NCBI GenBank assembly: GCA_902505605.1
Contig: CABWKN010000157.1
Span: 1-42,893 of the forward strand
From: Candidatus Guanabacterium sedimentis
GTDB taxonomy: Bacteria; Acidobacteriota; B3-B38; Guanabaribacteriales; B3-B38
DNA length: 42,893 nucleotides
Reading direction: 5' to 3'
Part shown: in pieces, positions 1,137 through 38,153 of the stretch
Numbering within the stretch: the stretch's first letter is position 1
Layout: the number at the start of each line of letters is the position of its first letter
Made by a program: the position numbers and the translations under genes
The notes under the pieces: generated by a model
What the model was told of the DNA's origin: nothing
The model's database searches: none
Seen by the model: the letters and a program-made list of their open reading frames with translations, nothing else

Positions 1137-2384
1137 GTGGATAAAAGTGTCCTGGTTATCGGAGCCGGAGTAGCGGGAATTACAACATCCCTTGAGTTAG
1201 CCAACAGCGGAGTGCAGGTTGTCCTGGTGGAAAAAAGCCCAGGACTGGGTGGTGCAGTCGCTTCATATTGCTGCAAAGCCACCGACCAATGCAACAAGTG
1301 CTCTGTATGCGTAGCCAATCAAAAGATGGAAGAGCTGTGGAGCGCGCCCAACCTTTCACTTTTCACCAATTCCGTTATACAGAAGCTAGCTCGCAGTGAC
1401 GGCGGGTTCCATATCACAGTAACGCACAAGCCCTCCTATGTTGATGACGATAAATGTATTCGCTGTCAGCTGTGCACTGAGAAATGCCCCACTACGCCAA
1501 GCTCTATTTTCCTGCCTCCTCCTCACTCCTCATTGCAGAGCTATGTGATTGATACTGATAGGTGTCTGCATTTTCAAGGCAAAAAATGTAATCTTTGTCA
1601 GGAGGTATGCCCTGCGGGAGCAGTCGACCTCTCCCAAAAAGAAAGGGAGGAGAACTTCCAGGTGGGAGCCATTGTGGTAGCAACCGGCTTTTCACCCTTT
1701 GACCCCACCCGAAAGAAGAGATATGGCTACGGGGCTTATCCCGATGTAATCACCGCCCTTGAACTGGAAGAGCAGCTGCGAATAGAAGGGAAGCTCAGCC
1801 GACCCTCCGATGGCAACCAGCCCAAACAGATAGCTTTTATCCAATGCTTCGGCAGCCGGGACGCCCATGTGGGGAATAACTATTGTTCCAGAGTCTGCTG
1901 CACATACACCATGAGACTGGCCAACCTTCTCAAGTTCAAGCACCCCGATTCAAGCGTTACCATATTTTACATGGACATCCAGACTTTCGGAAAAGAATTT
2001 GAGCAGTTTTATCAGCAGTGCCGCCAGAAAATCACCTTTATCCGTGATATGCCCTCACTCATCCAGCAGGATGGGAACAACAAGCTCTTAATCACCTATC
2101 AGGACAGAAAAGAGGGGCAAGTGGTGCGGAGCAATTTCGACCTGGCTGTCCTCTCCGTGGGTCTTTGTCCGGGAGAGGATACCGCCAAGCTGGTTGAATT
2201 GCTGGGGCTGCAGACCAACGAGCACGGCTTCTTCAAATCATTGAGCCCTCTACAAACCAACGAAACAGAGGCAGAGGGAATATTCCTCGCCGGCACCTGT
2301 CAAGGACCCCGTGACATAAGCGAATCCATCGCCCATTCTATCGGAGCGGCGGAGAAAGCCCTCGCTTATCTGGGAGCTGAATAG
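1137..2384 (+). CDS. HdrA-like flavoprotein, short form with two ferredoxin clusters
   Basis: The 415-residue protein is related to HdrA, the FAD subunit of heterodisulfide-reductase-type complexes. A Rossmann FAD motif opens it (VLVIGAGVAG, residues 5-14). An unusual cysteine group follows (C45, C46, C52, C55, C58) where HdrA normally has PTxDCxxC. Then come a 4Fe-4S motif (C107, C110, C113, C117) and a second with a widened first gap (C143, C151, C154, C158). The HdrA-typical IQCFGSRD with NYCSRVCC lies at about 235-255. The GTG start is chosen because the FAD motif begins four codons later; the ribosome site is weak. The next gene starts immediately after its stop. Together the two genes match the halves of the large fusion at 6452, without the NfnB insert. 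An electron-transfer role is firm; partners are inferred. Confidence 0.85.
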   Translation: MDKSVLVIGAGVAGITTSLELANSGVQVVLVEKSPGLGGAVASYCCKATDQCNKCSVCVANQKMEELWSAPNLSLFTNSVIQKLARSDGGFHITVTHKPSYVDDDKCIRCQLCTEKCPTTPSSIFLPPPHSSLQSYVIDTDRCLHFQGKKCNLCQEVCPAGAVDLSQKEREENFQVGAIVVATGFSPFDPTRKKRYGYGAYPDVITALELEEQLRIEGKLSRPSDGNQPKQIAFIQCFGSRDAHVGNNYCSRVCCTYTMRLANLLKFKHPDSSVTIFYMDIQTFGKEFEQFYQQCRQKITFIRDMPSLIQQDGNNKLLITYQDRKEGQVVRSNFDLAVLSVGLCPGEDTAKLVELLGLQTNEHGFFKSLSPLQTNETEAEGIFLAGTCQGPRDISESIAHSIGAAEKALAYLGAE

Positions 2385-4064
2385 ATGACAGAGGGAAAAA
2401 GAATAGGGGTCTTCCTTTGCAACTGCGGGGGAAGTCTTGACGCTCATTTAGACCTCAAGAAACTGAAGCAATACTGCCAGGGACTACCTCAAGTAGTGTA
2501 TGTAGAGGAGCTCAGAACCTTTTGCCTCCCTGAGGACCCTCAGAAGATAGCCTCCGTCATCAAGAAGGAGAACCTTTCGGGCGTCGTATTAGCCGGGTGT
2601 CCCCAACGGAATTCCGAATCTATAGCTTCAGCTATAGCCCGAGAGTCTCACCTGAGCCAGCATTTAATCAGCTTTGCCAACATAAGGGAGCAGTGTGCAT
2701 GGGCCTATCCCCAGCGGGAAACAGCTACCTTGCAAGCCGAAAAAATGCTGGCATCGGCGGTAGCCCGAAACATCCGTCTTCATCCCCTGGAAGAGGAGGA
2801 GTTGTCCGCCGAGAAAAGCGTCCTTATCATAGGAGGAGGCATTGGTGGCATTCAGACCGCTCTGGAACTCTCCCGCATGGGATTTGGAGCCACCATACTG
2901 GAGAAGAAGCCCCACCTGGGAGGACTGATGAAGGGCACTGCCGCTCCCTTCGATTCGGTGATCCAACCTCTGGAGCTGATTTCCTCCCGCATAGAGACCG
3001 CCACCAAGGACCCCAGCATAGACATTCTTACCTCCAGCGAACTGGTAAAACTGGAGGGAGAGCCGGGCAGATACCAGGCTCATATAAAACAGAAAGGAAA
3101 GAAGAAAACCTTAACTGCGGGCGCTATTGTGGTGGCTACCGGCTATCTGGTCAGCTTTCCCCAGGAGCGGTATGGATTCCCTCTCTCGCAGCGGGTCATC
3201 ACCCAATCGCAGTTATCCGCCATACTGGCCGACGAGAAGAAAACCCAGGCTTTGCTGGGAGGCGCTAAAGGAAAAGAGAAAAATATCATCTTCATCCTCG
3301 GAATGGGTGGAGAAAGCACTCCTCTGACCACCGCCTTCACCCTCAAGGTATCATCGCTTATTAAAGAAAAGTATAATTGGAACGTCTTCATTATTTACAA
3401 CAATATCAAAGTTGCTGGCGAGGGGCTGGAGGCACTCTTCCGGCAGTGTCGGAGTCAGGGTATTATCCTGCTAAGATACGATGAACTCCGTCCCGGGTTC
3501 ACCATCAGCAAGGAGAAGATAGGCATCCGACTCGGCGGTCTGCTCACCTCTTTGGAAAAAGAGGAGGAGGAGGTAACCATCCCCGGTCACCTTATGGTGG
3601 TCGAGGAGCGGATAGAGCCCGAGTCCGACTTTGAGAACCTCGCCCCACTATTGGGGATAAATGTTGACCCTCAGGGTTTTCTCCAGAAGGACAATCCTCA
3701 TTTGTTTCCCATTGCCACCAATAAGGCGGGAGTTTTCGTGATGGGCTCTTGTCATCATCCCATGCTGCTCCCATTTATCATGGAAGAGGCGGCAGCAACA
3801 GCGCTCCATATTGCTGAGCAGCTCTCCGAGGGAAAAATCAGGGTCTTCAAAGAAAGGGCAATGGTAGATAAAGGTAAGTGCACCCTTTGCCTCACCTGTA
3901 TTCGTCTCTGCCCCCATAATGCCATCTCTTACGACCGGGCAGCGGTCATCTCGGAGGCTTTGTGCCAAGGCTGCGGAGTCTGTGCCAGCGAGTGTCCGGC
4001 AGAGGCAATAGAAATTAGAAATTATACCACCCATCAGCTTATGGCTGAGATAGGAGTGAGCTGA
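2385..4064 (+). CDS. hdrA: HdrA-like iron-sulfur flavoprotein with C-terminal 2x[4Fe-4S]
   Basis: The 559-residue protein has three regions. The N-terminal domain (about 1-130) carries RIGVFLCNCGG and AGCPQR, like the HdrA N-terminal iron-sulfur/HdrC-contact domain. Next is an FAD Rossmann domain starting at SVLIIGGGIGGIQ (about 145) with the LGGLM element. The C-terminal ferredoxin domain has two complete 4Fe-4S motifs (C499, C502, C505, C509 and C527, C530, C533, C537). In HdrA the FAD is the bifurcating flavin and the C-terminal clusters pass low-potential electrons to ferredoxin. The gene starts on the base after the upstream stop codon, so the two are almost surely co-translated. It corresponds to the second half of the 1475-residue fusion. 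A standard HdrA is longer, so this pair looks like an HdrA split in two. Confidence 0.88.
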   Translation: MTEGKRIGVFLCNCGGSLDAHLDLKKLKQYCQGLPQVVYVEELRTFCLPEDPQKIASVIKKENLSGVVLAGCPQRNSESIASAIARESHLSQHLISFANIREQCAWAYPQRETATLQAEKMLASAVARNIRLHPLEEEELSAEKSVLIIGGGIGGIQTALELSRMGFGATILEKKPHLGGLMKGTAAPFDSVIQPLELISSRIETATKDPSIDILTSSELVKLEGEPGRYQAHIKQKGKKKTLTAGAIVVATGYLVSFPQERYGFPLSQRVITQSQLSAILADEKKTQALLGGAKGKEKNIIFILGMGGESTPLTTAFTLKVSSLIKEKYNWNVFIIYNNIKVAGEGLEALFRQCRSQGIILLRYDELRPGFTISKEKIGIRLGGLLTSLEKEEEEVTIPGHLMVVEERIEPESDFENLAPLLGINVDPQGFLQKDNPHLFPIATNKAGVFVMGSCHHPMLLPFIMEEAAATALHIAEQLSEGKIRVFKERAMVDKGKCTLCLTCIRLCPHNAISYDRAAVISEALCQGCGVCASECPAEAIEIRNYTTHQLMAEIGVS

Positions 4065-4090
4065 AAGGCTTCTGAAAAGGGGGCTTTAAA

Positions 4091-5491
4091 TTGCCAAAAT
4101 ACGATGTCGCCATAATAGGAGGGGGACCCGGAGGTTATGTGGCTGCCATAAGAGGAGCTCAGCTGGGAGGGAGAATCTGCGTGATAGAGAAAGAGGAGCT
4201 GGGGGGAACCTGCCTCAACTGGGGCTGTATCCCCACCAAAGCGCTCATCGCCTCCACCTCAGTGCTCAGATACATCAAAGAGGCACAGCACTACGGAATA
4301 CACATCAAGGGTGATGTGGAAGCAGACTTTCCCGCCATAATGGAAAGAAAAAATAAGGTAGTAGCCACCAATGTACAGGGGGTAAAGGCCACATTTAAAA
4401 GTTACCATATTAACCTTATAAAGGGCAACGCCTCATTCCTCGCCCCCCACAGACTCAAGGTAACCCTCCCCGATGGTTCTACCGAAGAGATAGAAGCAGA
4501 AAAGGTGATCATCGCCACCGGCTCTGTCCCCGCTATTATTCCGGCTTTCCCCATTGACGGGAAGAAGATCATTTCCAGCGACGAAGCCGTCACCATGAAA
4601 GAGGTCCCCAAAAGCATCCTCATTATCGGCGCAGGGGCTATCGGCTGCGAGTTCGCCTTCATTCTCCACGAACTTGGCTGTCAGGTTACCATGGTAGAGA
4701 TGCTGGCTCATGCGGTACCTCTGGAGGACATTGACACCTCCAGGACCATGGACCGAGAGCTAAAGAAGCGCAAGATCAAGCTCTACTGTGGCATCAAGGT
4801 TCAGCATGTCAAGGAAGATGCTGATGGGATGATGTTAGCCACTCTGGAAAGTGGCGAGCAGATAAGAGCCGAAAAGGTGCTGGTCTCCATAGGGAGAGTC
4901 TTCAATGTAAAGGGACTCGACCTCGACAACGCCAAAGTAGCCCAGGGGAAGAGGGGTGAGATTCTGGTCAATGAACATATGGAGACTAATGTCCCCGGAG
5001 TCTACGCTGTAGGTGATGTAATTGGGGGAATCATGTTAGCCCATGTCGCCTCAAAAGAGGGGATAGTAGCCGTGGAAAACGCTCTTGGCAAGAATAAAAA
5101 GATGGACTACCGGGTAGTGCCGGCGACCATATTCACCAATCCCGAGATTGGCAGCGTCGGTCTGAAAGAGAGAGAAGCCAGAGAGCAGGGATACGAGATC
5201 CGCATAGGAATGTTCCCCTACCGGGCTCTGGGGAAATCACATGCCATGGGGGAGATCGTAGGGCAGGCGAAAATCATCGCCGACGCCAAAACCGACAAGA
5301 TTCTGGGAGTCCACATCGTGGGAGCGCATGCCACCGACCTCGTCCACGAGGGAGCGATAGCAATCCAGCACGGAATCACCGCTCAGCAGTTGGGCGATAC
5401 CATACACTCCCATCCTACTTTATCCGAAGTTCTTATGGAAGCCGCTCACGATGTCCACCAGATAGCTATAGATATGCCCAAAAAAACCTGA
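4091..5491 (+). CDS. lpd: Dihydrolipoamide dehydrogenase (E3 / L protein)
   Basis: The 466-residue flavoenzyme has the usual length. It oxidises protein-bound dihydrolipoamide with NAD+, as the L protein of glycine cleavage or E3 of 2-oxoacid dehydrogenases. Visible are the FAD motif DVAIIGGGPGGY (5-16), the redox-active disulfide in GGTCLNWGCIPTK (C41, C46), the NAD motif ILIIGAGAIGCEFA near 175, the FAD-binding AVGDV, and the C-terminal HSHPTLSE with catalytic His441 and Glu446. All catalytic residues are present. The start is TTG, with a purine-rich GGGGG upstream; no better start precedes the FAD motif. It lies 26 bases after an hdrA gene and 62 bases before the H-protein gene, inside the hdr operon. 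This suggests that NADH and lipoyl redox chemistry are tied to the Hdr complex (inference). Confidence 0.95.
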   Translation: MPKYDVAIIGGGPGGYVAAIRGAQLGGRICVIEKEELGGTCLNWGCIPTKALIASTSVLRYIKEAQHYGIHIKGDVEADFPAIMERKNKVVATNVQGVKATFKSYHINLIKGNASFLAPHRLKVTLPDGSTEEIEAEKVIIATGSVPAIIPAFPIDGKKIISSDEAVTMKEVPKSILIIGAGAIGCEFAFILHELGCQVTMVEMLAHAVPLEDIDTSRTMDRELKKRKIKLYCGIKVQHVKEDADGMMLATLESGEQIRAEKVLVSIGRVFNVKGLDLDNAKVAQGKRGEILVNEHMETNVPGVYAVGDVIGGIMLAHVASKEGIVAVENALGKNKKMDYRVVPATIFTNPEIGSVGLKEREAREQGYEIRIGMFPYRALGKSHAMGEIVGQAKIIADAKTDKILGVHIVGAHATDLVHEGAIAIQHGITAQQLGDTIHSHPTLSEVLMEAAHDVHQIAIDMPKKT

Positions 5492-5553
5492 AAAGGGGAA
5501 ATAATTAAATGGCTTTAGATATACTAAATTTAACATTAAAGGAGGCCCAATAA

Positions 5554-5928
5554 ATGGGAGACGAGAGCTACAAATTTCACAAAGAGCATCTATGGTTTAA
5601 GGTGGAAGGCGATACCGGGATTATTGGCATCACCGATTACGCCCAGGAACAACTGGGAGAGATTGTATATGTTGACCTGCCCGATGAAGGAGATGAGATT
5701 AAAAAAGACGAGTCCCTGGGTGAGGTCGAGTCCGCTAAAGCCCTCTCCGACCTTATCGCCCCGGTGAGCGGAGAGGTAATTGAGGTCAACAACAATGCCG
5801 TTGATGACCCTTCAATCATCAACAAAGACCCTATGGGTGAGGGATGGCTTCTCAAAGTTAAGCTGTCCGACCCATCGGAGCTGGATGACCTCCTTTCTGA
5901 AGAAGATTATAGCAAATTGGCAAAATAG
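5554..5928 (+). CDS. gcvH: Glycine cleavage system H protein (lipoyl carrier)
   Basis: The 124-residue protein is a complete H protein. The N-terminus YKFHKEHLWFKVEGDTGIIG is typical, and the lipoylation site is K62 in GEVESAKALSDL. The conserved INKDPMGEGWLLKV segment and acidic C-terminus are present. A strong ribosome site (AAAGGAGG) precedes the ATG. H protein shuttles aminomethyl and reducing equivalents between the glycine cleavage P, T and L proteins. GcvP and GcvT are not in this window; only the L partner (lpd) is, directly upstream. Lipoate-binding proteins are known next to sulfur-oxidising sHdr complexes, but those are a divergent class. This one looks like an ordinary GcvH by motif, so a folate/glycine role is more likely. 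Confidence 0.95.
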   Translation: MGDESYKFHKEHLWFKVEGDTGIIGITDYAQEQLGEIVYVDLPDEGDEIKKDESLGEVESAKALSDLIAPVSGEVIEVNNNAVDDPSIINKDPMGEGWLLKVKLSDPSELDDLLSEEDYSKLAK

Positions 5929-5982
5929 CCTGAGAGAAATCCATCTGCCTGGGGAAAGAGCAGTAGTGTGAGGTTGTAAGGC

Positions 5983-6429
5983 ATGGGAGACCAGGAGAGT
6001 CGCGGAAAGCAATCCGATGACTTTTGTCCGCGAATAGTAGCCTTCTGTTGTCAGCGTTCCGCCTACCGTGCAGCAGACTTAGCAGGTGAGATGCACCTTA
6101 GCTTCCCCGAAGGGCTTAACATCATCCAGGTTCCCTGCACAGGTCGGGTCGACATCGTCTACCTGCTTCGGTCACTTGAAGAGGGCGCCGACGGGGTGCT
6201 CATCCTTGCCTGCTTTGAGGACAATTGCAAATATATCTCAGGCAACATTCGAGCACGCAAACGGGTGGAGTACGCTCGAAAACTCCTTAAAGAACTCGGA
6301 CTGGAGGAGGAGAGAATAACCATTGGTAACCTCGCCTCCAACACACCCCATCGGTTTGTAGAGCTCACCCAGGCAATGACAGAAGAAATTAAAAAATTAG
6401 GACCAAGTCCCTTGCGGGCTAAGCCATAA
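5983..6429 (+). CDS. mvhD: MvhD/FlpD-type iron-sulfur electron-transfer subunit, copy 1
   Basis: The 148-residue protein belongs to the MvhD family (hydrogenase delta subunit), which holds a [2Fe-2S] cluster and passes electrons from a hydrogenase or dehydrogenase into HdrA. Family landmarks are AYRAADLAGEM, VPCTGRVDIVYLL and ACFEDNCKYISGN. The first motif reads FCCQRSAY: the second cysteine of the usual CxxC is serine here, while copy 2 at 10884 keeps CHYC. One cluster ligand may thus be lost or supplied by the neighbouring cysteine. It lies 22 bases upstream of the large HdrA fusion. No hydrogenase gene is nearby, so its donor is probably a flavoprotein of the operon (inference). Confidence 0.88.
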   Translation: MGDQESRGKQSDDFCPRIVAFCCQRSAYRAADLAGEMHLSFPEGLNIIQVPCTGRVDIVYLLRSLEEGADGVLILACFEDNCKYISGNIRARKRVEYARKLLKELGLEEERITIGNLASNTPHRFVELTQAMTEEIKKLGPSPLRAKP

Positions 6430-6451
6430 AGATTAAGGGCTTTTCTGAGAG

Positions 6452-9400
6452 ATGGGCAACGAACAGAAAAAAGTTGGCGCAGTGCTGGTAGTGGGAGGTG
6501 GAGTTGGAGGGATGCAAGCCGCCCTCGACCTGGCGGACTCCGGCTTCAAAGTCTACCTGGTGGAGAAAAAGAGCTACATCGGCGGGGTGATGGCTCAGCT
6601 CGACAAGACCTTTCCCACCAACGACTGCGCTATGTGCATAGTAGCCCCCAGGCTGGTGGAGACCGGAAGACACCTCAACATAGAGACCATCACCAATACT
6701 GAGATAGATAAGGTCGAAGGAAAACCGGGAGACTTTAAGGTCACCGTCCGGAAGAAAGCACGATACATTGACCTTGACATATGCACCGGCTGTGGAGAGT
6801 GCGCCGAAGTCTGTCCGGTGAAGGTGGGGAGTGAGTTCGACCTTGGAATGGTCGACCGTCGCGCCACCTATCGGGGCTACCCGCAGGCAGTCCCTAGCGC
6901 TTACCTCATTGAGAAGTCTGGCAGAGGACCATGCGCGCTCACCTGCCCCGCAGGGGTAAACGCTCACGGGTATGTAGCGCTTATAGCTGAGGGAAAATTC
7001 GCCGAAGCGCTGACCCTGGAGAGGAAACAAAACCCATTCGCGGGTATCTGCGGGCGGGTCTGTCACCACCCCTGCGAAATAGCCTGTCGCCGGGGCGAAT
7101 ACGACCAGCCCATTGCCATCTGCCATCTCAAGCGCTTCCTCGCAGATTGGGAGCTGCAGCACGGACCCCTCCCCCTCCCCAACATAGAAAAGCCCAAAAA
7201 GGAAAAAGTAGCCATTATCGGCTCCGGCCCGGCTGGTCTGTCAGCCGCCCACGACCTCGCCCTGATGGGATATAAGGTCACCATCTTTGAAGCGTTGCCA
7301 GTTGCTGGCGGAATGCTGCGCACAGGCATCCCCGCCTACAGACTGCCCCGCGATGTACTCGACTACGAAATAAAGAGGATTACCGACCTGGGGGTGGAGA
7401 TTAAGCTCAATGCCCCCATCGGCAAGGATTTAACCATTGATAATCTTAAGAAGAAAGGTTATAAAGCTATTTTCATCGCCATAGGTGCCCACAAGGGACT
7501 GAAGCTCCGCATCCCCGGGGAAGACGAGTATGAGGGCTTCATGGACTGCATCAGCTTCCTGCGTAAGGTTAACCTGGGCGAGAAGGTGAGTCCGGTAAAG
7601 AGGGTTATTATCATCGGCGGCGGGAACGCCGCCATAGACTCTGCCCGTGCATCTCTGAGAATAGGATGTGAGGAGGTCGTCATCGCCTATCGCCGCTCCC
7701 GTAAGGAGATGCCCGCCAATGAGACAGAGATTCAGGCTGCAGAGTTTGAAGGGGTGAAAATCCACTACCTGGCTGCTCCGGTGAGAATCATCGGTTCCAA
7801 TGGCAAGGTTACCGGCATGGAGTGCATCCGTATGAGACTGGGAGAGCCTGATGCCAGTGGTCGCCGAAGACCTATCCCCATAGAGGGGACCGAGTTCGTC
7901 ATAGAATCCGACCGCATCATCCCCGCCATCAGCCAGGAACCCGACATCTCCTTCCTTCCCGACGACCACAAATTTAACATTTCCCGCTGGAATTCCTTTG
8001 TGGTCAATGAGGTCAGCTACCAGACCAACATCCCAGGAATATTTTCCGCCGGGGATGCAGTGACCGGACCTAACACGGTCATTGATGCCATTGCTGCCGG
8101 TAAGGAGGTGGCTATCTCCATTGACCGGTATATTCAGGGAAAAGAGCTCCTGACTGATAGACCGGGAAAGAAGCCCTGCGAGGGAAGACCGGGCCAAAAG
8201 GCTGGACCATACACACCCCGGCAGCAGATGCCTACCCTATCTCGCCAAAAAAGAGAGGGAAACTTCAAGGAGGTAGAGCTCGGCTTTACCGAGGAGATGG
8301 CTGTTGAAGAAGCCAAGCGATGCCTCGATTGCGGCGTATGCTCCGAATGCATGGAGTGTGTAAAAGCCTGCGAGGCAAAAGCCATCGCCCACGAGATGCC
8401 TGATGAGCAGTTAGAGGAGCTGTCGGTCGGAGCTATCATACTGGCTCCCGGCTACCGGCTCTTCCCTGCTGAAGAAGCCCAGGAGTTCGGCTACGGTAGG
8501 TTCTCCAATGTGGTCAGCAGCCTGGAGTTTGAACGCATCCTCTCCGCCAGCGGTCCTTATATGGGGAAGGTGCTGCGACCCTCCGACCAGGAAAAGCCGA
8601 AAAAAATTGCTTTTATTCAATGTGTCGGCTCCCGCGATGTAGAGAGAAACTACTGTTCGTCTGTGTGCTGCATGTACGCTATTAAGGAGGCAGTGATTGC
8701 CCGGGAGCACGACTCTGACATTGATTGCCACATTTTCTATATCGACCTGCGAGCTTTCGGCAAAGGATTTGATGAGTATTACGAGAGAGCCAAAGAGAGC
8801 GGCATCCAATTCACTCGTTGCCGCCCATCCTCGGTGAAAGAGATACCCCACAGCAAAGACCTCGTTGTCCGATATCAGACCGAGGATGGAAGGTTTATCG
8901 ACGAGGAGTTCAATCTGGTGGTGCTCTCCTGCGGTCTCCAGCCGCCCGAGGGAGTCGAAAAGTTAGCCTCCACATTGGGGCTGAAACTCGACCAGCATAA
9001 GTTCTGCCAGACAGAGAAATTCACCCCCATTGAGACCTCCCAGCCCGGAATCTTCGTTTGTGGACCCTTCTCCGAACCCAAGGATATACCCGAAACCGTT
9101 ACCGAAGCCAGCGGCACCGCTGCTCTGGCTATGGGGATGTTAGCCCCCGCTCGAGGGGAACTCATCAAGGAGAAGGAATACCCCCCCGAAAAGGATGTAG
9201 CTGGACAGCCGCCGCGCATTGGGGTATTTATCTGTCACTGCGGCAAGAACATAGGCGGAGTCATTGAAGTGAGCAAGCTGGTCGAGTATGCTAGCCATCT
9301 CCCCGATGTGGTCTATGCCACCGAGATGATATACTCTTGCTCCCAAGATGCCCAGGAGATTATGAAACAGACCATTGAGGAGCACAAGCTGAATCGCGTG

Positions 9401-10879
9401 GTGGTCGCTTCCTGCACCCCCCGAACCCACGAGCCGCTTTTCCAGGAAACCATCCGTCAAGCGGGGCTGAATCCCTATTTGTTCTCCATGGCTAATATTC
9501 GCGACCAGTGCACTTGGGTTCACATGCACGAGGCTGACAGCGCCTTGGAAAAGAGCAAGGTGCTGGTCAATATGGCTATTGCCCGAGCGCGTTACATTCA
9601 GCCCCTCCACAAAGAAACCATCGGTTTAACCAAGGATGCTCTGGTCATAGGCGGTGGTGCAGCCGGAATGGTAGCCGCCCTCAATATGGCGGATGAAAGA
9701 TACAATGTCCATCTGGTAGAACGAGAAGAAGTGCTGGGGGGCAACCTGAGACACATCTATTTCACCCTTGAAGGGATGGACCCGCAAAAGTATTTGACAG
9801 AGCTTATAAATAAGGTCACCTCCAACCCGAAGATTACCGTCCACCTGGGTAGCTCTCTCACCGGGTTTTCGGGATTTATCGGCAACTTCCAGGCTACCTT
9901 AAGTGCCAATGGCGGACCGCCGAAAAATATAAACTGCGGAGTGGTGATAGTAGCCACCGGCGGCACTGTCTACCAGGGTGAGGAATATCTTTACGGCAAA
10001 GATGAGAGAGTCATTAACCAGCAGAAGCTGGAAGAAACCATCTATCACCATCCTGAGCGGATAAAGGAACTGGGGCAGGTGGTGATGATCCAATGTGTGG
10101 GCTCGCGGGAGCCCGACCACCCCTCCTGCAGCCGCATCTGCTGCGGAGAGGCGATAAAAAACGCACTGAAAATCAAAGAGATGAGCCCATCTACCAATGT
10201 ATTCATCCTCTATAGAGACATCAGAGCGTATGGCTTCCGGGAAAAATATTACCGGCAAGCAAGAGAGCAGGGGGTCTATTTTATCCGCTATGAGCCTGAG
10301 GAGAAGCCCGAGGTAACCAACGAGGGAATGCTCAAAGTCAGAGTTAAGGACTATATCTTCGGTGGGAAAATGGAGCTGAGACCCGACCTCCTGGTACTGA
10401 GCACGGGTATCCGAGCCCATCCCGACAGCGAGGAACTGGCTGCCATGCTTAAAGTATCCTTAACCCAGGAGAAATACTATCTGGAAGCTCATATGAAACT
10501 CCGACCGGTTGACTTCTCCGCTGACGGCATCTTTCTGGCGGGGCTGGCGCATTATCCGAAATATATTGACGAATCGATTGCCCAGGCTCGGGCGGCGGTA
10601 TCGCGGGCAAGCAGGGTCATCTGGCAGGATACCCTGCAGGTGGGAGGCGCTATCTCCCAGGTGGACGAGAACCTCTGTGCGGCCTGTCTCACCTGCATCA
10701 GGGTCTGCCCCTATGATGCACCCACCTTCCGTGATGGAGTAGCTTACATTGAGATAGCCAAATGTCAGGGATGTGGAATATGTGCCGATGCCTGCCCTGC
10801 CAAAGCCATACAGCTATTGCATTCCACCGACCAACAGATTATAGCTATGACCGACGCTTTGGCTGAGGCAGCTTCCTGA
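6452..10879 (+). CDS. hdrA: HdrA - NfnB/GltD - HdrA triple flavoprotein fusion
   Basis: This 1475-residue protein contains three flavin modules. Residues 1-150: HdrA FAD motif VLVVGGGVGG, FPTNDCAMC and a ferredoxin motif CTGCGECAEVCP (111-122). Residues about 160-640: an inserted glutamate-synthase small-subunit/NfnB-like NAD(P)H:flavin oxidoreductase, with N-terminal cysteines (C161, C165, C200, C204, C208, C212), FAD motif VAIIGSGPAGLSAA (253), NAD(P)-type motif VIIIGGGNAAIDSA (385), SAGDAVTGP (532) and cysteines at 624-640. About 655-900: the rest of HdrA with IQCVGSRD and NYCSSVCC. About 922-1475: a second HdrA with PRIGVFICHCG, FAD motif ALVIGGGAAG (1063) and C-terminal 2x[4Fe-4S] (about 1405-1455). 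The frame is unbroken over 4.4 kb. By family, HdrA bifurcates electrons; the insert suggests NAD(P)H as donor or acceptor (inference). Confidence 0.92.
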   Translation: MGNEQKKVGAVLVVGGGVGGMQAALDLADSGFKVYLVEKKSYIGGVMAQLDKTFPTNDCAMCIVAPRLVETGRHLNIETITNTEIDKVEGKPGDFKVTVRKKARYIDLDICTGCGECAEVCPVKVGSEFDLGMVDRRATYRGYPQAVPSAYLIEKSGRGPCALTCPAGVNAHGYVALIAEGKFAEALTLERKQNPFAGICGRVCHHPCEIACRRGEYDQPIAICHLKRFLADWELQHGPLPLPNIEKPKKEKVAIIGSGPAGLSAAHDLALMGYKVTIFEALPVAGGMLRTGIPAYRLPRDVLDYEIKRITDLGVEIKLNAPIGKDLTIDNLKKKGYKAIFIAIGAHKGLKLRIPGEDEYEGFMDCISFLRKVNLGEKVSPVKRVIIIGGGNAAIDSARASLRIGCEEVVIAYRRSRKEMPANETEIQAAEFEGVKIHYLAAPVRIIGSNGKVTGMECIRMRLGEPDASGRRRPIPIEGTEFVIESDRIIPAISQEPDISFLPDDHKFNISRWNSFVVNEVSYQTNIPGIFSAGDAVTGPNTVIDAIAAGKEVAISIDRYIQGKELLTDRPGKKPCEGRPGQKAGPYTPRQQMPTLSRQKREGNFKEVELGFTEEMAVEEAKRCLDCGVCSECMECVKACEAKAIAHEMPDEQLEELSVGAIILAPGYRLFPAEEAQEFGYGRFSNVVSSLEFERILSASGPYMGKVLRPSDQEKPKKIAFIQCVGSRDVERNYCSSVCCMYAIKEAVIAREHDSDIDCHIFYIDLRAFGKGFDEYYERAKESGIQFTRCRPSSVKEIPHSKDLVVRYQTEDGRFIDEEFNLVVLSCGLQPPEGVEKLASTLGLKLDQHKFCQTEKFTPIETSQPGIFVCGPFSEPKDIPETVTEASGTAALAMGMLAPARGELIKEKEYPPEKDVAGQPPRIGVFICHCGKNIGGVIEVSKLVEYASHLPDVVYATEMIYSCSQDAQEIMKQTIEEHKLNRVVVASCTPRTHEPLFQETIRQAGLNPYLFSMANIRDQCTWVHMHEADSALEKSKVLVNMAIARARYIQPLHKETIGLTKDALVIGGGAAGMVAALNMADERYNVHLVEREEVLGGNLRHIYFTLEGMDPQKYLTELINKVTSNPKITVHLGSSLTGFSGFIGNFQATLSANGGPPKNINCGVVIVATGGTVYQGEEYLYGKDERVINQQKLEETIYHHPERIKELGQVVMIQCVGSREPDHPSCSRICCGEAIKNALKIKEMSPSTNVFILYRDIRAYGFREKYYRQAREQGVYFIRYEPEEKPEVTNEGMLKVRVKDYIFGGKMELRPDLLVLSTGIRAHPDSEELAAMLKVSLTQEKYYLEAHMKLRPVDFSADGIFLAGLAHYPKYIDESIAQARAAVSRASRVIWQDTLQVGGAISQVDENLCAACLTCIRVCPYDAPTFRDGVAYIEIAKCQGCGICADACPAKAIQLLHSTDQQIIAMTDALAEAAS

Positions 10880-10883
10880 AGAA

Positions 10884-11327
10884 ATGGGGGAATCAAGATT
10901 GAAGGAGTTTGAACCAGAAATTCTGGCTTTTGCCTGTCACTATTGTGCCTATGCAGCGGCTGACCTGGCAGGTTCTATGAGGCTGCAATACCCCACCAAT
11001 GTCAAAATAATAAAGATTCCCTGTTCGGGAAAAATAGACATTATCTATATTTTAAAAGCATTAGAAGCGGGAGCCGATGGCATACTGGTAGCCGGGTGAC
11101 TGGAAGGAACCTGCCATTACCTGGAAGGTAATCTGAGAGCAAAGCAGAGAGTAGAGCACGCCAAAGAGCTCCTTGAAGAGATTGGCATGGAAGGGGAGCG
11201 GGTGGAGATGGTCTTCATCTCGGCATCGGAGGGGAAGAGATGGGCGGAGATAATAAGCCAGATGAGGGAGAAACTGAAAAAGCTGGGACCCAATCCCCTT
11301 AAACAGAACCGAGGGAGTGGAAAATAA
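10884..11327 (+). CDS. mvhD: MvhD-type subunit, copy 2, probable selenoprotein (in-frame TGA)
   Basis: The frame opens at ATG 10884, meets TGA at 11097-11099, and continues in frame without a break to TAA at 11325-11327, giving 147 residues against 148 for copy 1. Conserved family motifs lie on both sides: ACHYCAYAAADLAG and IPCSGKID before the TGA, TCHYLEGNLRAKQRVEHAK after it. Residue 72, encoded by TGA, aligns with the conserved cysteine of copy 1 (ACFEDNCKY versus G-U-LEGTCHY). Sec-containing MvhD/VhuD proteins are known. A hairpin suited to a bacterial SECIS begins 11 bases after the TGA. Its stop overlaps metV (TAATG). Both CxxC cysteines are kept, unlike copy 1. It probably joins the HdrA fusion to MetVF or HdrBC. 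A nonsense mutation is the less likely alternative. Confidence 0.85.
11111..11147 (+). promoter_or_regulatory. Candidate bacterial SECIS element
   Basis: Downstream of the TGA at 11097-11099, ATTACC (11116-11121) pairs perfectly with GGTAAT (11127-11132) around the five-base loop TGGAA. CTGC (11111-11114) can pair with GCAG (11144-11147) as an outer stem. The apical loop with its G residues starts 22 bases after the TGA, close to the spacing in known bacterial selenoprotein mRNAs. The structure lies within the coding sequence, as bacterial SECIS elements do. Confidence 0.65.
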
Positions 11328-11995
11328 TGATAACCGCTGTAAGGAAGCCACTCAACGAAATAATAGAAATGGTAGCCCCCTATGAGAAGATATTGGTAAC
11401 TGGCTGTGGCACCTGCGTTACCATAGATTACTCTGGCGGGGCTAAAGAGGCAGCTATCCTTGCCTCGCAGCTGCGTATTGCGCGGAGGCTGGGAGGGAAA
11501 AAGCTGGAAACCCTGGAGCAGACCGTGGAGCGGCAGTGCGAATGGGAGTTTGTAAAGGAGTTTACCGACCATGCGGCTGAATGCCAGGCGATAATAAGCA
11601 TGGCCTGTGGAGCGGGAATACAAACAGTAGCCGCTGCCTTCCCTGATAAGCCGGTCTTCCCTGGGGTCAACACCCGATTTGTCGGCATGCCCCAGAAACA
11701 GGGCGTCTGGGAGGAGAGATGCATTTGCTGTGGCAACTGCGTCCTCCATCTTACCGGTGGGCTTTGCCCCTTTGCCCGCTGCGCCAAAACACTTCTCAAC
11801 GGCCCCTGCGAGGGCTCGCAGGACGGCAAATGCGAGGTAAACCGAGAGCTTGACTGCGTCTGGCAGCAGATATACGACATCTTAAAAGAGAAAGGGAGGT
11901 TAGCTGACCTGCAGAAGATATTCCCTCTGCGCGACTGGTCCACCGGTGAAGACGGAGGCTACCGGATAACCGTCAGGGAGGATATGATGCTATGA
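11327..11995 (+). CDS. metV: MetV, zinc/iron-sulfur partner of methylene-THF reductase
   Basis: The 222-residue protein matches MetV, the accessory subunit of the acetogen-type methylenetetrahydrofolate reductase, which links MetF to an electron donor. The N-terminus has KILVTGCGTCVTIDYSGG (C27, C30). The middle has MACGAGIQTVA, and the C-terminal half is cysteine-rich (CICCGNC, LCPFARCAK, GPCEG, KCEVN), consistent with a zinc site plus an iron-sulfur cluster. The start overlaps the stop of the upstream mvhD by one base, and the end overlaps metF by four (ATGA). Such coupling implies a fixed stoichiometry. MetVF physically joined to HdrABC-MvhD is described in Moorella thermoacetica; the same gene set is present here. 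Confidence 0.88.
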   Translation: MITAVRKPLNEIIEMVAPYEKILVTGCGTCVTIDYSGGAKEAAILASQLRIARRLGGKKLETLEQTVERQCEWEFVKEFTDHAAECQAIISMACGAGIQTVAAAFPDKPVFPGVNTRFVGMPQKQGVWEERCICCGNCVLHLTGGLCPFARCAKTLLNGPCEGSQDGKCEVNRELDCVWQQIYDILKEKGRLADLQKIFPLRDWSTGEDGGYRITVREDMML

Positions 11996-12876
11996 GCGCC
12001 AACAGCGGTCTGAAAAAGCTATTAGAAAAGGGAGAGTTCGTAATAATTGCTGGCATCGGTATTCCCCGCGGGGCTGATTTTAAACCACTGGAAGAGCGTT
12101 ACAAGCTATTAGAAAAAAAGGTCAATGCCTTTTATATACCTGACAATCCGGGAGCAAATGTCTACCTGCTGGGTCTGGCAGCGGCGGTGCACTTACAGAA
12201 ACTGGGAGGAGAAACACTGCTGGAGCTGAACTGCCGGGATAGAAATCGCATCGCCATCCAGAGCTCTATTCTGGGAACGGCTGCTCTGGGCATACCCAAC
12301 CTTCTCTTCTCCACCGGCGACCATCAAACCCTGGGCAATTTCAGAGGGGCTAAAAGGGTTTACGATGTGGACCTGACTCAAGCTATCCAGATAGCCCGGG
12401 GAATGAGGGATGAGAAAAAGTTCTCCAATGGTGAAGAAGTAGAGCAACCGCCCTCTGTCTTCATCGGCGCCGAGGTAAATCCCTTTGCCGACCCTTTAGA
12501 ATTCAGACCAGCCCTTATGGCGAAAAAGGTCGAGGCAGGTGCGGACTTTGTTCAGACCCGAGCGGTCTTCGACCTGGAGCGCTTCGGGAAATGGATAAAG
12601 CTGGTGCGGCAGCAAAAACCACTTCAGAAAATTCCCATCCTGGCAGGGATAATGCCGCTGGTCTCGGTGGAGCACGCTAAAGCCCTGCAGGAAGCACCGG
12701 GGATGATAGTGCCCGACTCGCTCGTCCAGCGGCTGGAATCGAGCAGCAAACCCGAGGAGGAGGGCATCAAGGTAGCAAAGGAGATTATCAACCAGGTGAA
12801 GAAGATGGAAGGAGTGAGAGGGATTGTGCTCCACGCCGGTGGGATGGAAAGCCTGATACCGCAGCTCATCACATAA
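11992..12876 (+). CDS. metF: Methylenetetrahydrofolate reductase
   Basis: The 294-residue flavoprotein is an MTHFR of normal bacterial length and reduces 5,10-methylene-THF to 5-methyl-THF in the methyl branch of the Wood-Ljungdahl pathway or in methionine synthesis. Family marks include LELNCRDRNRIAIQSSILG, the NLLFSTGDHQ strand, GAEVNPFADP, the AGADFVQTRAVFDLE segment near 180, and PILAGIMPLVS. It lacks an NADH-binding fusion, so its electrons must come from partner proteins. The adjoining metV, mvhD and hdr genes are the obvious source. It overlaps metV by four bases and is followed 51 bases later by hdrC. Confidence 0.93.
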   Translation: MSANSGLKKLLEKGEFVIIAGIGIPRGADFKPLEERYKLLEKKVNAFYIPDNPGANVYLLGLAAAVHLQKLGGETLLELNCRDRNRIAIQSSILGTAALGIPNLLFSTGDHQTLGNFRGAKRVYDVDLTQAIQIARGMRDEKKFSNGEEVEQPPSVFIGAEVNPFADPLEFRPALMAKKVEAGADFVQTRAVFDLERFGKWIKLVRQQKPLQKIPILAGIMPLVSVEHAKALQEAPGMIVPDSLVQRLESSSKPEEEGIKVAKEIINQVKKMEGVRGIVLHAGGMESLIPQLIT

Positions 12877-12927
12877 GGGGGCTTTATAGTATGGCTTGAT
12901 GAACTTGTTTTTTTAACCGGGGGCTTT

Positions 12928-13506
12928 ATGAAAGCTGAGACAATGGAAAAGGTATTAACACAGGAAACCCTGAAATCGGATTTTACAGATAAGATTGCCC
13001 AGGAGAGCGACCAGAATGTGTACCTCTGCTATCAATGCCGCAAGTGTGCCGCCGGTTGCCCGGTCACCTATGAGACTGACTATACCCCCTTCCAGATAAT
13101 ACAGGGGGTGATATACGGTCAGCGTGAGCTGGTGCTCAACAGCAAGATGATATGGTTGTGTACCACATGTGAGACCTGCACCACCCGCTGCCCCCAGGAA
13201 ATAGATATCGCCCGGGTAATGGATGCCGCCCGAATAATCGCCCAGCGAGAGGGGATAAAGGCTAAATACCCGGAGGTGCCCGCCTTTTTCCAGACCTCTT
13301 TACAAAATATCAGTTGGTTCGGAAGGCTGTACGAGGTGGGGCTGATAATGATGCTCAAGCTGCGGACGAAGGATTTTACTAAAGATGTAGGCTTGGGTAT
13401 AAGAATGTTCTTAAATAGAAAGCTCAAGCTCACCCCCAAGCCTACCGCATTTCGAGAAGTAAGGCGAATTTTCAAAAAAATCAAGGAGATAGAGGAGGCC
13501 AGTTGA
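12928..13506 (+). CDS. hdrC: HdrC-like ferredoxin subunit
   Basis: The 192-residue protein has two classical 4Fe-4S motifs, C34-C37-C40-C44 and C78-C81-C84-C88, in the HdrC arrangement (YLCYQCRKCAAGCPV and WLCTTCETCTTRCPQ), followed by the IDIARVMDAARIIA helix. HdrC relays electrons from HdrA to HdrB. The C-terminal region from about 110 is longer than minimal HdrC and basic, without clear membrane helices. ATG at 12928 follows GGGGG; a second in-frame ATG is at 12943. It overlaps hdrB by four bases. The position at the end of the operon, after metVF, suggests HdrBC is the high-potential arm of the same complex. Confidence 0.92.
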   Translation: MKAETMEKVLTQETLKSDFTDKIAQESDQNVYLCYQCRKCAAGCPVTYETDYTPFQIIQGVIYGQRELVLNSKMIWLCTTCETCTTRCPQEIDIARVMDAARIIAQREGIKAKYPEVPAFFQTSLQNISWFGRLYEVGLIMMLKLRTKDFTKDVGLGIRMFLNRKLKLTPKPTAFREVRRIFKKIKEIEEAS

Positions 13507-14405
13507 TGAGATATGCCTACTACCCGGGATGCTCTCTCCACTCCACTGCCTTTGAATATGACCTCTCCATGAGAGCTGTGCTGGAGAAGCTGGGGATAGA
13601 GTATGAGGAGCTGCGGGGATGGATCTGCTGCGGCACATCCCCGGCTCACTGCAGCTCGAAGCTTCTGGGGGTAACCCTTCCTATCAAGAACCTGGCTATC
13701 GCCGAGGAGGACGGCTTCCGGCAAATGATAGTCCCCTGCGCTTCGTGTTTCTCACGGTTTAAGATCGCCCTGCATGAGACAGAGGAGAATCCCGAGCTGA
13801 AGGAGAAGGTGGAGCAGGTTCTCAACTACGCCTATCAGGGGAGTGTTGAAGTTCGCCATCCTCTGGATATCTTTTACAACGAAGTGGGATTGGAACGGAT
13901 AAGGGAATCGGTCAGTGAAGACCTCTCCCGGATGAAGGTAGTGTGCTACTATGGCTGCCTCTTGACCCGTCCCCCCAAAGCAGTTAACTTTGACCAATGT
14001 GAGTATCCTATGACCATGGATAATTTGCTTAGAGGCTGCGGGATAGAGGTGCTCGACTGGTCTTACAAGACCGATTGCTGCGGTGCAGGACAGGCTTTGG
14101 CACTGACCAATATCGTAGTGAAGCTAAGCCGCGATATACTGGTCAACGCCAAGCAGGTGGGAGCCGAGGCGGTGGCAGTGGCGTGCCCGCTGTGTCACAG
14201 CAACCTGGATGCCCGACAAAAGGAGATAGAGCAAACTTATAAACTGAGCCTCAATTTGCCCATATTCTATTTCAGCCAGCTCATCGCTCTGGCGATGGGA
14301 GTGGACAAGAATAAAATAGGATTGCAAGGGCATCTGGTAAGCCCCTTCCCCCTGCTTAAAAAAATAAAATCCACTTCTTCCTCTGCCAGGCCGTCTCGGG
14401 GATAA
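13503..14405 (+). CDS. hdrB: HdrB-like subunit with two CCG domains
   Basis: The 300-residue protein carries both CCG cysteine sets that bind noncubane [4Fe-4S] clusters in HdrB. The first is C9, C41-C42, C78 and C81; the second is C151, C191-C192, C227 and C230. All ligands are present, so the active site looks intact. In methanogens HdrB reduces the CoM-S-S-CoB heterodisulfide. Bacteria lack that substrate, and the natural acceptor of bacterial HdrB homologues is mostly unknown; lipoyl disulfide or another thiol is conceivable given gcvH and lpd in the operon (inference). The C-terminal tail after about 270 is serine- and lysine-rich and not conserved in obvious ways. It is the last gene of the operon. 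Confidence 0.93.
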   Translation: MMRYAYYPGCSLHSTAFEYDLSMRAVLEKLGIEYEELRGWICCGTSPAHCSSKLLGVTLPIKNLAIAEEDGFRQMIVPCASCFSRFKIALHETEENPELKEKVEQVLNYAYQGSVEVRHPLDIFYNEVGLERIRESVSEDLSRMKVVCYYGCLLTRPPKAVNFDQCEYPMTMDNLLRGCGIEVLDWSYKTDCCGAGQALALTNIVVKLSRDILVNAKQVGAEAVAVACPLCHSNLDARQKEIEQTYKLSLNLPIFYFSQLIALAMGVDKNKIGLQGHLVSPFPLLKKIKSTSSSARPSRG

Positions 14406-36419: not shown

Positions 36420-38099
36420 TCATATTATAGCCGGCTCCTGATAGATACCAAAGACTTTTCTCAAACAATCGGAGATTTCACCAACCGTGGCGTAGGCTTC
36501 AACTGCCTGGAGAATAGGCGGAATAAGGTTCTGCTCACCCCTGGCTGCCCTCTCCACCTCATTTAGAGAACTGGCTACCAGATGGCTGTCACGCTCCTTT
36601 TTCAGTTTCCTGAGGCGCTTGATCTGCTCCTTCTCCACTGTAAGGTCAATTTTGAGAAGCTGAAAAGGAGCCTTCTCCTCGGTGCTGTATTTATTGACTC
36701 CCACCACGACCCGCCTGCCCTCCTCTATCTCTTTCTGGTAGCGATAGGCGCTCTCCTGGATCTCCCTCTGGAAGAATCCCGCCTCAATGGCCTTCAAAGA
36801 ACCCCCCATCTGGTCTATCCGCTCGATGTATTCCATCGCCTTACTCTCTATCTCGGAGGTAAGCCGCTCAATGAGAAAAGAGCCCCCAAGGGGGTCGGCT
36901 GTATCGGCTACTCCCGACTCGTGGGCTATCATCTGCTGGGTGCGCAGAGCAATCTGAACTGACTCGACCGAAGGGAGCGCCAGCGCCTCCTCACGCGAAT
37001 TGGTGTGCAGCGACTGGGTGCCGCCCAGAACAGCCGCTAGAGCTTGCAGGGTGACCCTGACGATGTTGTTATCGGGCTGTTGGGCGGTGAGGGTACAGCC
37101 GGCGGTCTGGGTATGAAACCGCAGCATCATGGAACGGGGGTCTTGGGCGTGGAACCTCTGCTTCATTATCCGCGCCCATAGCCTTCTTGCCGCTCGGAAT
37201 TTGGCTACCTCTTCCAGAAAATGGTTGTGGGAATTGAAGAAAAAGGATATCCGTGGGGCAAAGCTGTCTACCTGAAAGCCCCGCTTGATGGCGGCTTCCA
37301 CATAGGCGATGCCGTTGGCTAAGGTGAAGGCAACCTCCTGCACCGCGGTGGCTCCCGCCTCCCGGATATGATAGCCACTTACACTGATAAAATTCCACCG
37401 GGGAAGCCTCTCTATACAATAGGCGAAGATATCAATGGTCAGACGGAGCGAAGGGGTGGGAGGGAAGATATAGGTTCCCCGGGAGATATACTCTTTCAAT
37501 ATATCATTCTGGATAGTCCCCGAGAGCTTCTCCATGGGCACTCCCTGCTTTCTGGCCACTGCCAGATACATGGCTAATATTATGGCGGCAGTAGAGTTTA
37601 TGGTCATGGAGGTGCTCACCCTGTCCAGAGGTATCTGCTGAAAAAGGAGCTCCATATCCTTGAGGGAGTCTATGGCTACCCCTACCTTTCCCACCTCGCC
37701 ACGAGCTAAGGGGTTGTCGGAGTCATAGCCTAACTGGGTGCAAAGGTCAAAGGCGACGCTCAGACCGGTCTGCCCCTGGGAGAGGAGGTATCGGTACCTG
37801 CGGTTAGACTCCGCGGCAGTGGCGTAACCGGCATACTGCCTCATAGTCCACAGGCGGCTGCGATACATTGTGGGATGTACACCACGAGTAAAGGGATAGG
37901 AGCCGGGAAAGCCTACATCCGCGAGATAGTTTATTCCCTTGATATCCTCCGGGGTAAACACACCTTTAAGCTCAATCTCAGAGGGGGTCTCAAATCTCTC
38001 CCTGCGCGGCGGAAACCTGGAATGCGAGTCCGCCAGCTCCTCCTTCTCCCATTGCTCCTTTGCCTTGGATATCTTATCCATCTTTTTATTATCAAACAT
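36420..38099 (-). CDS. Methylmalonyl-CoA mutase, large catalytic chain
   Basis: The 559-residue chain is the acyl-CoA-binding TIM-barrel part of a B12-dependent mutase. Family stretches are [56 protein letters not shown] and [18 protein letters not shown]. The [15 protein letters not shown] stretch matches methylmalonyl-CoA mutases rather than isobutyryl-CoA mutases by motif. The B12-binding domain is not fused, as in archaeal-type two-subunit enzymes, and its gene is not in the window. I start at ATG 38099 behind GGGGGGA; a frame to 38150 would begin upstream of the likely transcription start. It interconverts succinyl-CoA and methylmalonyl-CoA. Confidence 0.92.
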
Positions 38100-38153
38100 A
38101 ACATCCCCCCAAGGAAAAATATATGCTATTAGGGCGTATTGATAAATCACCCC

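Follow-up and report, generated by a model that had tools for sequence, protein, structure and literature searches.

A Moorella-type methylene-tetrahydrofolate reductase gene block with an lpd-gcvH pair in an uncultured Aminicenantes bacterium

Introduction

The methylene-tetrahydrofolate (methylene-THF) reductases of Moorella thermoacetica and Sporomusa ovata are MetVF-HdrABC-MvhD systems, and HdrA of M. thermoacetica consists of two TrxR-like halves that each have an E/K pair, a GltD domain being inserted in the N-terminal half (Kremp et al., 2022; PMC9430772). For the Sporomusa enzyme a second electron acceptor or donor could not be found (PMC9430772), and the standard review lists the second acceptor of MetVF-HdrABC-MvhD as '?' (Buckel and Thauer; PMC5861303). 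Kremp et al. weighed a (proteinogenic) dithiol as a co-reductant acting at HdrB, and their trials of such a compound with the Sporomusa enzyme were limited to lipoate and dihydrolipoate in free form and to glutathione (PMC9430772). The name HdrL for fusions of HdrA with GltD that go with MvhD dates from Strittmatter et al. (2009; PMC2702500). In the sHdr system, Hdr-like proteins always occur with a lipoyl carrier, LbpA, which is marked by two cysteines (PMC6067878). Here we describe a gene block at positions 1137-14405 of contig CABWKN010000157.1 (hereafter the window, the whole stretch of 42,893 nucleotides that was analysed), from an organism termed an uncultured Aminicenantes bacterium, in which the genes for an Hdr-type methylene-THF reductase stand together with lpd, for dihydrolipoyl dehydrogenase, and gcvH, for a lipoyl H-protein.

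We suggest, with roughly even confidence for and against, that the eleven genes specify a Moorella-type (Hdr-type) methylene-THF reductase together with an accessory arm that has an NADH-Lpd-lipoyl-GcvH relay.

Results

The lpd-gcvH pair and the search for lipoyl users

The lpd-gcvH pair sits between hdrA2 and mvhD1 in 3/3 congeners, with dN/dS values of 0.06-0.14. Scanning genomes for HdrL, we obtained 80 near full-length loci from named records, and among these lpd and gcvH occur together only at the locus of the congener; no other MetVF cluster there carries them.

Searches of the three congeneric genomes (81, 79 and 93% complete) found neither GcvP nor GcvT in any of them, and the same searches find both in the order-level relative G003, which has a complete-looking gcvT-gcvH-gcvP cluster, and in 10-11 of 14 control genomes. 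No congener yielded the E2 subunit of 2-oxoacid dehydrogenases, nor did G003, and 10 of the 14 controls have it. Acetyl-CoA synthase (ACS; CdhC) and formyl-THF ligase also went unfound in each of the three congeners, the same searches detecting the former in the phylum relative G037 and the latter in G003. Lipoate ligase is present in each of the congeners, and the sole other GCV_H protein of the genome, of 381 amino acids, has Phe at the lipoyl position. Since no GcvP, GcvT or E2 was found and this other protein lacks the lysine, the GcvH of the operon is the only lipoylatable protein found, and Lpd is left without another evident client. Not shared by the other MetVF clusters of the scan, the lpd-gcvH pair is the new element here, as judged from gene content and conservation.

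Two known roles were considered and set aside: relay of lipoyl groups to E2, as in Bacillus, is unlikely given that E2 was not found in the three congeners, and Wood-Ljungdahl acetogenesis was rejected, as ACS and formyl-THF ligase were not found in them. An identity with LbpA of the sHdr system was also rejected, because LbpA needs two conserved cysteines, near its N- and C-terminus (PMC6067878), and the window GcvH has none.

The 381-amino-acid protein (L142:7882-9027, on G000:C33) contains repeated Cys-rich motifs (CxWMxAGVVSYxxC...) along with its GcvH domain, and is encoded downstream of a hydrogenase-like sensor with two [4Fe-4S] clusters and a response regulator; similar proteins are found near HdrL in the Desulfobacterota loci L075, L081, L086 and L115. 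GcvH-like proteins with the lipoyl lysine adjoin HdrCB-HdrL in two unrelated lineages, both without MetV. One, in a Syntrophaceae metagenome-assembled genome (MAG; L056:8095-20637), has GcvH, HdrC, HdrB, HdrL and MvhD, after which come FrhB-like proteins, Fe-S proteins and a FAD oxidase/CCG protein of the GlcD type. The other, in bacterium CSMAG_2763 (L088:5096-14395), has a CCG protein, lipoate ligase, GcvH, a second GcvH-domain open reading frame (ORF), HdrB and HdrL as one block, and is a lipoyl-carrier/Hdr cluster outside sulfur oxidation.

Gene order and conservation

The eleven genes of the block are tightly packed on one strand (Table 1), in the order HdrA-like (415 amino acids), HdrA-like (559), Lpd, GcvH, MvhD, HdrA/GltD fusion (1475), second MvhD, MetV, MetF, HdrC and HdrB, with successive intergenic distances of 0, 26, 62, 54, 22, 4, -1, -4, 51 and -4 nt. 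The block is flanked by 306 nt to an Hsp20 gene upstream and by 376 nt to a tricorn-type protease gene downstream. Gene calls and distances agree with the first-pass annotation of this DNA, which had described eleven co-directional genes with mostly short gaps or overlaps, and the subunits and domains confirm its recognition of a Moorella-like HdrABC-MvhD plus MetVF that includes a pyridine-nucleotide module.

A search of genomes for the gene order, which that annotation had proposed as a check, finds it complete in the congener G002 (L042; 90-98% identity) and divided between two contigs in the congener G001 (L041 and L040); the named congener record is a Candidatus Aminicenantes MAG. In the congener comparison, each gene of the block has a dN/dS of 0.03-0.14, which indicates purifying selection, and together with the kept order this argues that the block is not due to chance. 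The class is represented in the collection by four genomes only. G003 gave no match to HdrA2, and G037, of the same phylum, has HdrC-HdrB-HdrL-MvhD-MetV-MetF (L039) without lpd-gcvH.

A terminator scan of the window gave a signal at the level of shuffled sequence, the promoter signal was only slightly above shuffles, and an Rfam search of the window returned no matches. Elsewhere in the window (36420-38150), a methylmalonyl-CoA mutase large domain adjoins peptide transporter genes, which fits a peptide- or amino-acid-fermenting life style.

Table 1. Features of the gene block, in window coordinates
Feature	Position	Strand	Support
HdrAs, HdrA-like first (TrxR) half, 415 aa; signature Lys replaced by Arg (R260)	1137..2384	+	
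HdrA2, HdrA-like second half, 559 aa; N-terminal Cys domain, TrxR domain, C-terminal 2x[4Fe-4S]	2385..4064	+	
Lpd, dihydrolipoyl dehydrogenase; CxxxxC redox pair C41/C46	4091..5491	+	TIGR01350, 536.9 bits (cut-off 408.8)
GcvH-type H-protein; lipoyl-lysine motif ESAK, zero cysteines	5554..5928	+	TIGR00527, 146.7 bits (cut-off 115.85)
MvhD/FlpD number 1, Cys form	5983..6429	+	
HdrL, 1475 aa; two HdrA halves and GltD/NfnB-like insertion (about residues 159-564)	6452..10879	+	Pfam/NCBIfam domains, alignment to solved HdrA
MvhD/FlpD number 2, predicted selenoprotein, 147 aa; selenocysteine at residue 72	10884..11327	+	
In-frame UGA read as selenocysteine (codon 72)	11097..11099	+	kept in G001 and G002
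MetV (DUF5981, MTHFR C-terminal family)	11327..11995	+	
MetF, methylene-THF reductase	11992..12876	+	
HdrC, two CxxCxxCxxxC motifs	12928..13506	+	
HdrB, two CCG domains	13503..14405	+	

The HdrL-MetVF core

The fusion protein fits the definition of HdrL, in which HdrA and a GltD-like NAD(P)H domain form one polypeptide and MvhD comes next. Its residues E692/K745 and E1194/K1236 correspond to the bifurcation signature E356/K409 of Methanothermococcus thermolithotrophicus HdrA, and the motif of its GltD module reads YRRSRKEMPA, with CLES/ALEK variants at other loci. HdrB retains the cysteines for both non-cubane clusters (C10, C42, C43, C79, C82 and C152, C192, C193, C228, C231), and MetV has no sequence relative in the PDB. 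Judged by sequence, HdrL-MvhD-MetV-MetF-HdrC-HdrB, which form the core, add a new member to the Moorella-type (Hdr-type) methylene-THF reductases, a known kind of enzyme.

The 80 HdrL loci span Thermodesulfobacteriota, Chloroflexota, Bacillota, Acidobacteriota, Latescibacterota, Planctomycetota, Spirochaetota and Calditrichota. MetV lies within 4 kb of HdrL in 42 of them, one being the congener's, across many phyla, and the taxa with recurring HdrL-MvhD-MetV-MetF include the cultured Desulfocicer vacuolatum and Desulfotruncus arcticus. The HdrL closest to that of the window is found in a Dehalococcoidia MAG with HdrC-HdrB-HdrL-MvhD-MetV-MetF (L052), rather than in G037, and could point to horizontal transfer of HdrL.

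The extra HdrA pair and the selenocysteine-containing MvhD

In HdrA2 the signature Glu has become Ser (S278) and the CVGSR..CC cysteines are gone. An HdrA pair with MvhD also accompanies MetVF, HdrC and HdrL in L059, L064, L066, L073, L113 and L117, and is further seen in L083, where the contig does not cover the first HdrA gene, and in L124, which has no MetVF match; its co-occurrence with MetVF and HdrL extends over Chloroflexota, Bacillota, Calditrichota and Spirochaetota. In six of the seven readable loci (L059, L064, L066, L113, L117 and L124) the first extra HdrA has Arg in place of the signature Lys, which L073 retains, and 6/7 have lost the signature Glu in the second extra HdrA, as in the window. 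HdrA pairs of other clusters in the same genus (L043 and L046) retain E/K, with one alignment gap in L043. By the published E/K criterion, the extra HdrA pair would be a non-bifurcating accessory arm.

The genus has further Hdr clusters (L043-L047 and L049), of which that of L047 adjoins 2-oxoacid:ferredoxin oxidoreductase and that of L043 malic enzyme.

Mechanical ORF calling ends the second MvhD at 11099 owing to an in-frame TGA. With the TGA read as selenocysteine (Sec), a full FlpD protein results (174 bits). The codon stands at a conserved Cys column, at which the solved homologue 9sfi_K has X (a non-standard residue), and the downstream frame is open in the congeners, with substitutions mainly at third positions. 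The genome encodes tRNA-Sec (71.9 bits, cut-off 47) and SelB (363.5 bits, cut-off 242). For a selenocysteine insertion sequence hairpin, the 48 nt after the UGA fold no better than shuffles (z -0.28). A Sec-containing MvhD is known from Desulfobacterium autotrophicum (PMC2702500), and the second MvhD, a predicted selenoprotein by these signs, belongs to this known family; the selenocysteine is a detail absent from the first-pass annotation.

In two other Hdr clusters of the genus (L043:6740-7132 and L046:4159-4542), MvhD has two in-frame UGA codons at conserved Cys columns, and 9sfi_K has X at both. HdrL itself has an in-frame stop at the column of the window's Cys62 in L068, L075, L081, L086, L094, L099, L105 and L115, mostly Desulfobacterota-type loci; this is probably Sec.

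Discussion

We suggest that NAD(P)H would be oxidised at the GltD module within HdrL and that the electrons would pass to the HdrA-type flavins with intact signature, where they could be split two ways: to MetVF, for the reduction of methylene-THF to methyl-THF (about -200 mV), and to an acceptor of low potential that is probably ferredoxin. The Sec-containing MvhD and HdrC would serve as wires and HdrB as the thiol/disulfide site, and the signature-less HdrA pair with MvhD1 would be the electron wire of the accessory arm. Beside NAD(P)H at GltD, the chain of NADH, Lpd, lipoyl-GcvH and HdrB/HdrC could form a second, dithiol-based entry (or exit), in which lipoyl-GcvH would stand where CoM-S-S-CoB does in methanogens and trade electrons with both non-cubane clusters of HdrB. 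As the redox potential of the lipoyl group is near that of NADH, electrons could move either way at the lipoyl group. The sequence itself gives the gene content and order, their conservation, the cofactor motifs, the genes for Sec decoding and the lack of any other lipoyl user among the proteins found, whereas complex formation, bifurcation, the direction of electron flow and a contact between GcvH and HdrB are inferred.

A link to glycine cleavage is contradicted, as discussed below, and the simplest reading gives the lipoyl pair a dedicated role in the operon. In its most specific form, Lpd and lipoyl-GcvH would be the dedicated protein-dithiol partner of the Hdr-type methylene-THF reductase, and lipoylation would survive in this lineage solely to bring electrons in or out at HdrB; this we put forward tentatively, as a possibility that falls somewhat short of being probable.

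The methyl-THF probably feeds methionine synthesis via an 819-amino-acid MetH-like protein in the genus, since ACS was not found. A reverse role, in methyl-group oxidation, may also be considered, because an MttB-type methyltransferase and a corrinoid protein are present. Genes for an MttB-family methyltransferase, a homocysteine methyltransferase and a corrinoid protein are found at L173:10021-11487 and L048:186-1772 (G000:C154, a contig that also has tRNA-Sec), and this set adjoins genes for carbamate kinase and an ornithine carbamoyltransferase-like protein.

Several points weigh against a functional relay. It is dispensable for the core reaction, as the MetVF clusters seen outside the genus are all without lpd-gcvH, and the Sporomusa enzyme was unaffected by free dihydrolipoate and lipoate, glutathione also being without effect (PMC9430772). 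Our comparison with Moorella rests on the published description (PMC9430772), the genomes are 79-93% complete, so that a single absence is no proof, and adjacency of genes is no proof of a complex, the proposal being drawn from sequence.

Alternatively, the block could be an ordinary Moorella-type operon into which an unrelated lpd-gcvH pair was inserted, as a remnant of lost glycine cleavage or as a lipoate reservoir, with no functional link. The lack of the pair in all other MetVF clusters seen, the classical type of the GcvH and the complete-looking gcvT-gcvH-gcvP cluster that G003 has elsewhere are in line with such an insertion, but the pair holds its position in 3/3 congeners under selection like the rest of the block, the lipoyl lysine and lipoate ligase are kept, and no E2 was found to take relayed lipoate. 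We regard an insertion without a functional link as rather unlikely.

It is also unlikely, in our view slightly more so, that the operon holds two machines, with the HdrA pair, Lpd, GcvH and MvhD1 acting as a lipoyl-linked disulfide oxidoreductase (e.g., a distant analogue of sHdr-LbpA) separate from an HdrL-MvhD-MetVF-HdrCB reductase. Against this, neither HdrB nor HdrC is encoded in the first half; in its favour, L056 and L088 pair GcvH with HdrCB without MetVF. G037 has the second half only, which would fit a division, whereas in Chloroflexota, Bacillota, Calditrichota and Spirochaetota the HdrA pair and MvhD co-occur with MetVF and HdrL. The lipoyl carrier is always part of the sHdr system (PMC6067878), but the GcvH here is without the two cysteines that define LbpA.

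Finally, the proposal of the first-pass annotation that the machine consumes methylene-THF and NADH from glycine cleavage is very improbable, for although GcvH and Lpd make up half of the four-protein glycine cleavage system, GcvP and GcvT were each found in 0/3 congeners at the completeness given above and are both found in G003.

Returning to the relay of Lpd and lipoyl-GcvH, a natural operon that brings along both a lipoyl protein and Lpd, in a genus for which the searches gave no further user of lipoyl groups, offers a concrete candidate co-substrate and a defined protein set. If the proposal is true, the missing co-substrate of the enzyme class would be identified, at least for this lineage, and H-protein-type carriers would have a third biological role besides glycine cleavage and lipoyl relay. 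The findings also suggest that the pairing of lipoyl carriers with Hdr proteins extends beyond sulfur oxidation.

Compared with MetVF-HdrABC-MvhD of Moorella thermoacetica and Sporomusa ovata, all subunits are present in the window, and HdrA has the two TrxR halves, the GltD insertion and both E/K pairs (the Moorella side taken from PMC9430772). The window differs by adding the HdrA pair with MvhD1, lpd-gcvH and Sec in MvhD2, by another gene order, and by a host in which ACS and formyl-THF ligase were not detected. HdrL-MvhD of Desulfobacterium autotrophicum likewise combines HdrA and a GltD-like NAD(P)H module in one protein, has MvhD next to it and contains Sec in several members, whereas its HdrL1 occurs with dsrABC and further HdrL loci with fdh or hdrD genes, no MetVF operon being described in the available part of that paper (PMC2702500). 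The clusters of L066, L073, L083, L113 and L117 (MAGs of Anaerolineae, Dehalococcoidia, Clostridia, Calditrichales and Spirochaetes) share duplicated HdrA/MvhD sets with MetVF and, mostly, the loss of E/K in the extra pair, but are without lpd or gcvH and have the accessory set and MetVF upstream of HdrL.

Of the features that the first-pass annotation had singled out in its Moorella-type system, the lpd-gcvH pair in the middle does prove unusual among the 80 HdrL loci, whereas the NfnB/GltD module inside HdrA was already known from Moorella (PMC9430772) and from the HdrL fusions named in 2009 (PMC2702500), and the duplicated HdrA and MvhD sets recur with MetVF in other phyla. With sHdr-LbpA of sulfur oxidisers, the window has in common that the gene for a GcvH-like lipoyl carrier adjoins those for Hdr-like proteins (PMC6067878), but its GcvH is classical and cysteine-free, and its cluster contains MetVF and no lipoate ligase. 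In conclusion, the core reductase, the GltD insertion, the extra HdrA pair with MvhD and the Sec-MvhD are known elements, and the lpd-gcvH addition is what is new in this cluster.

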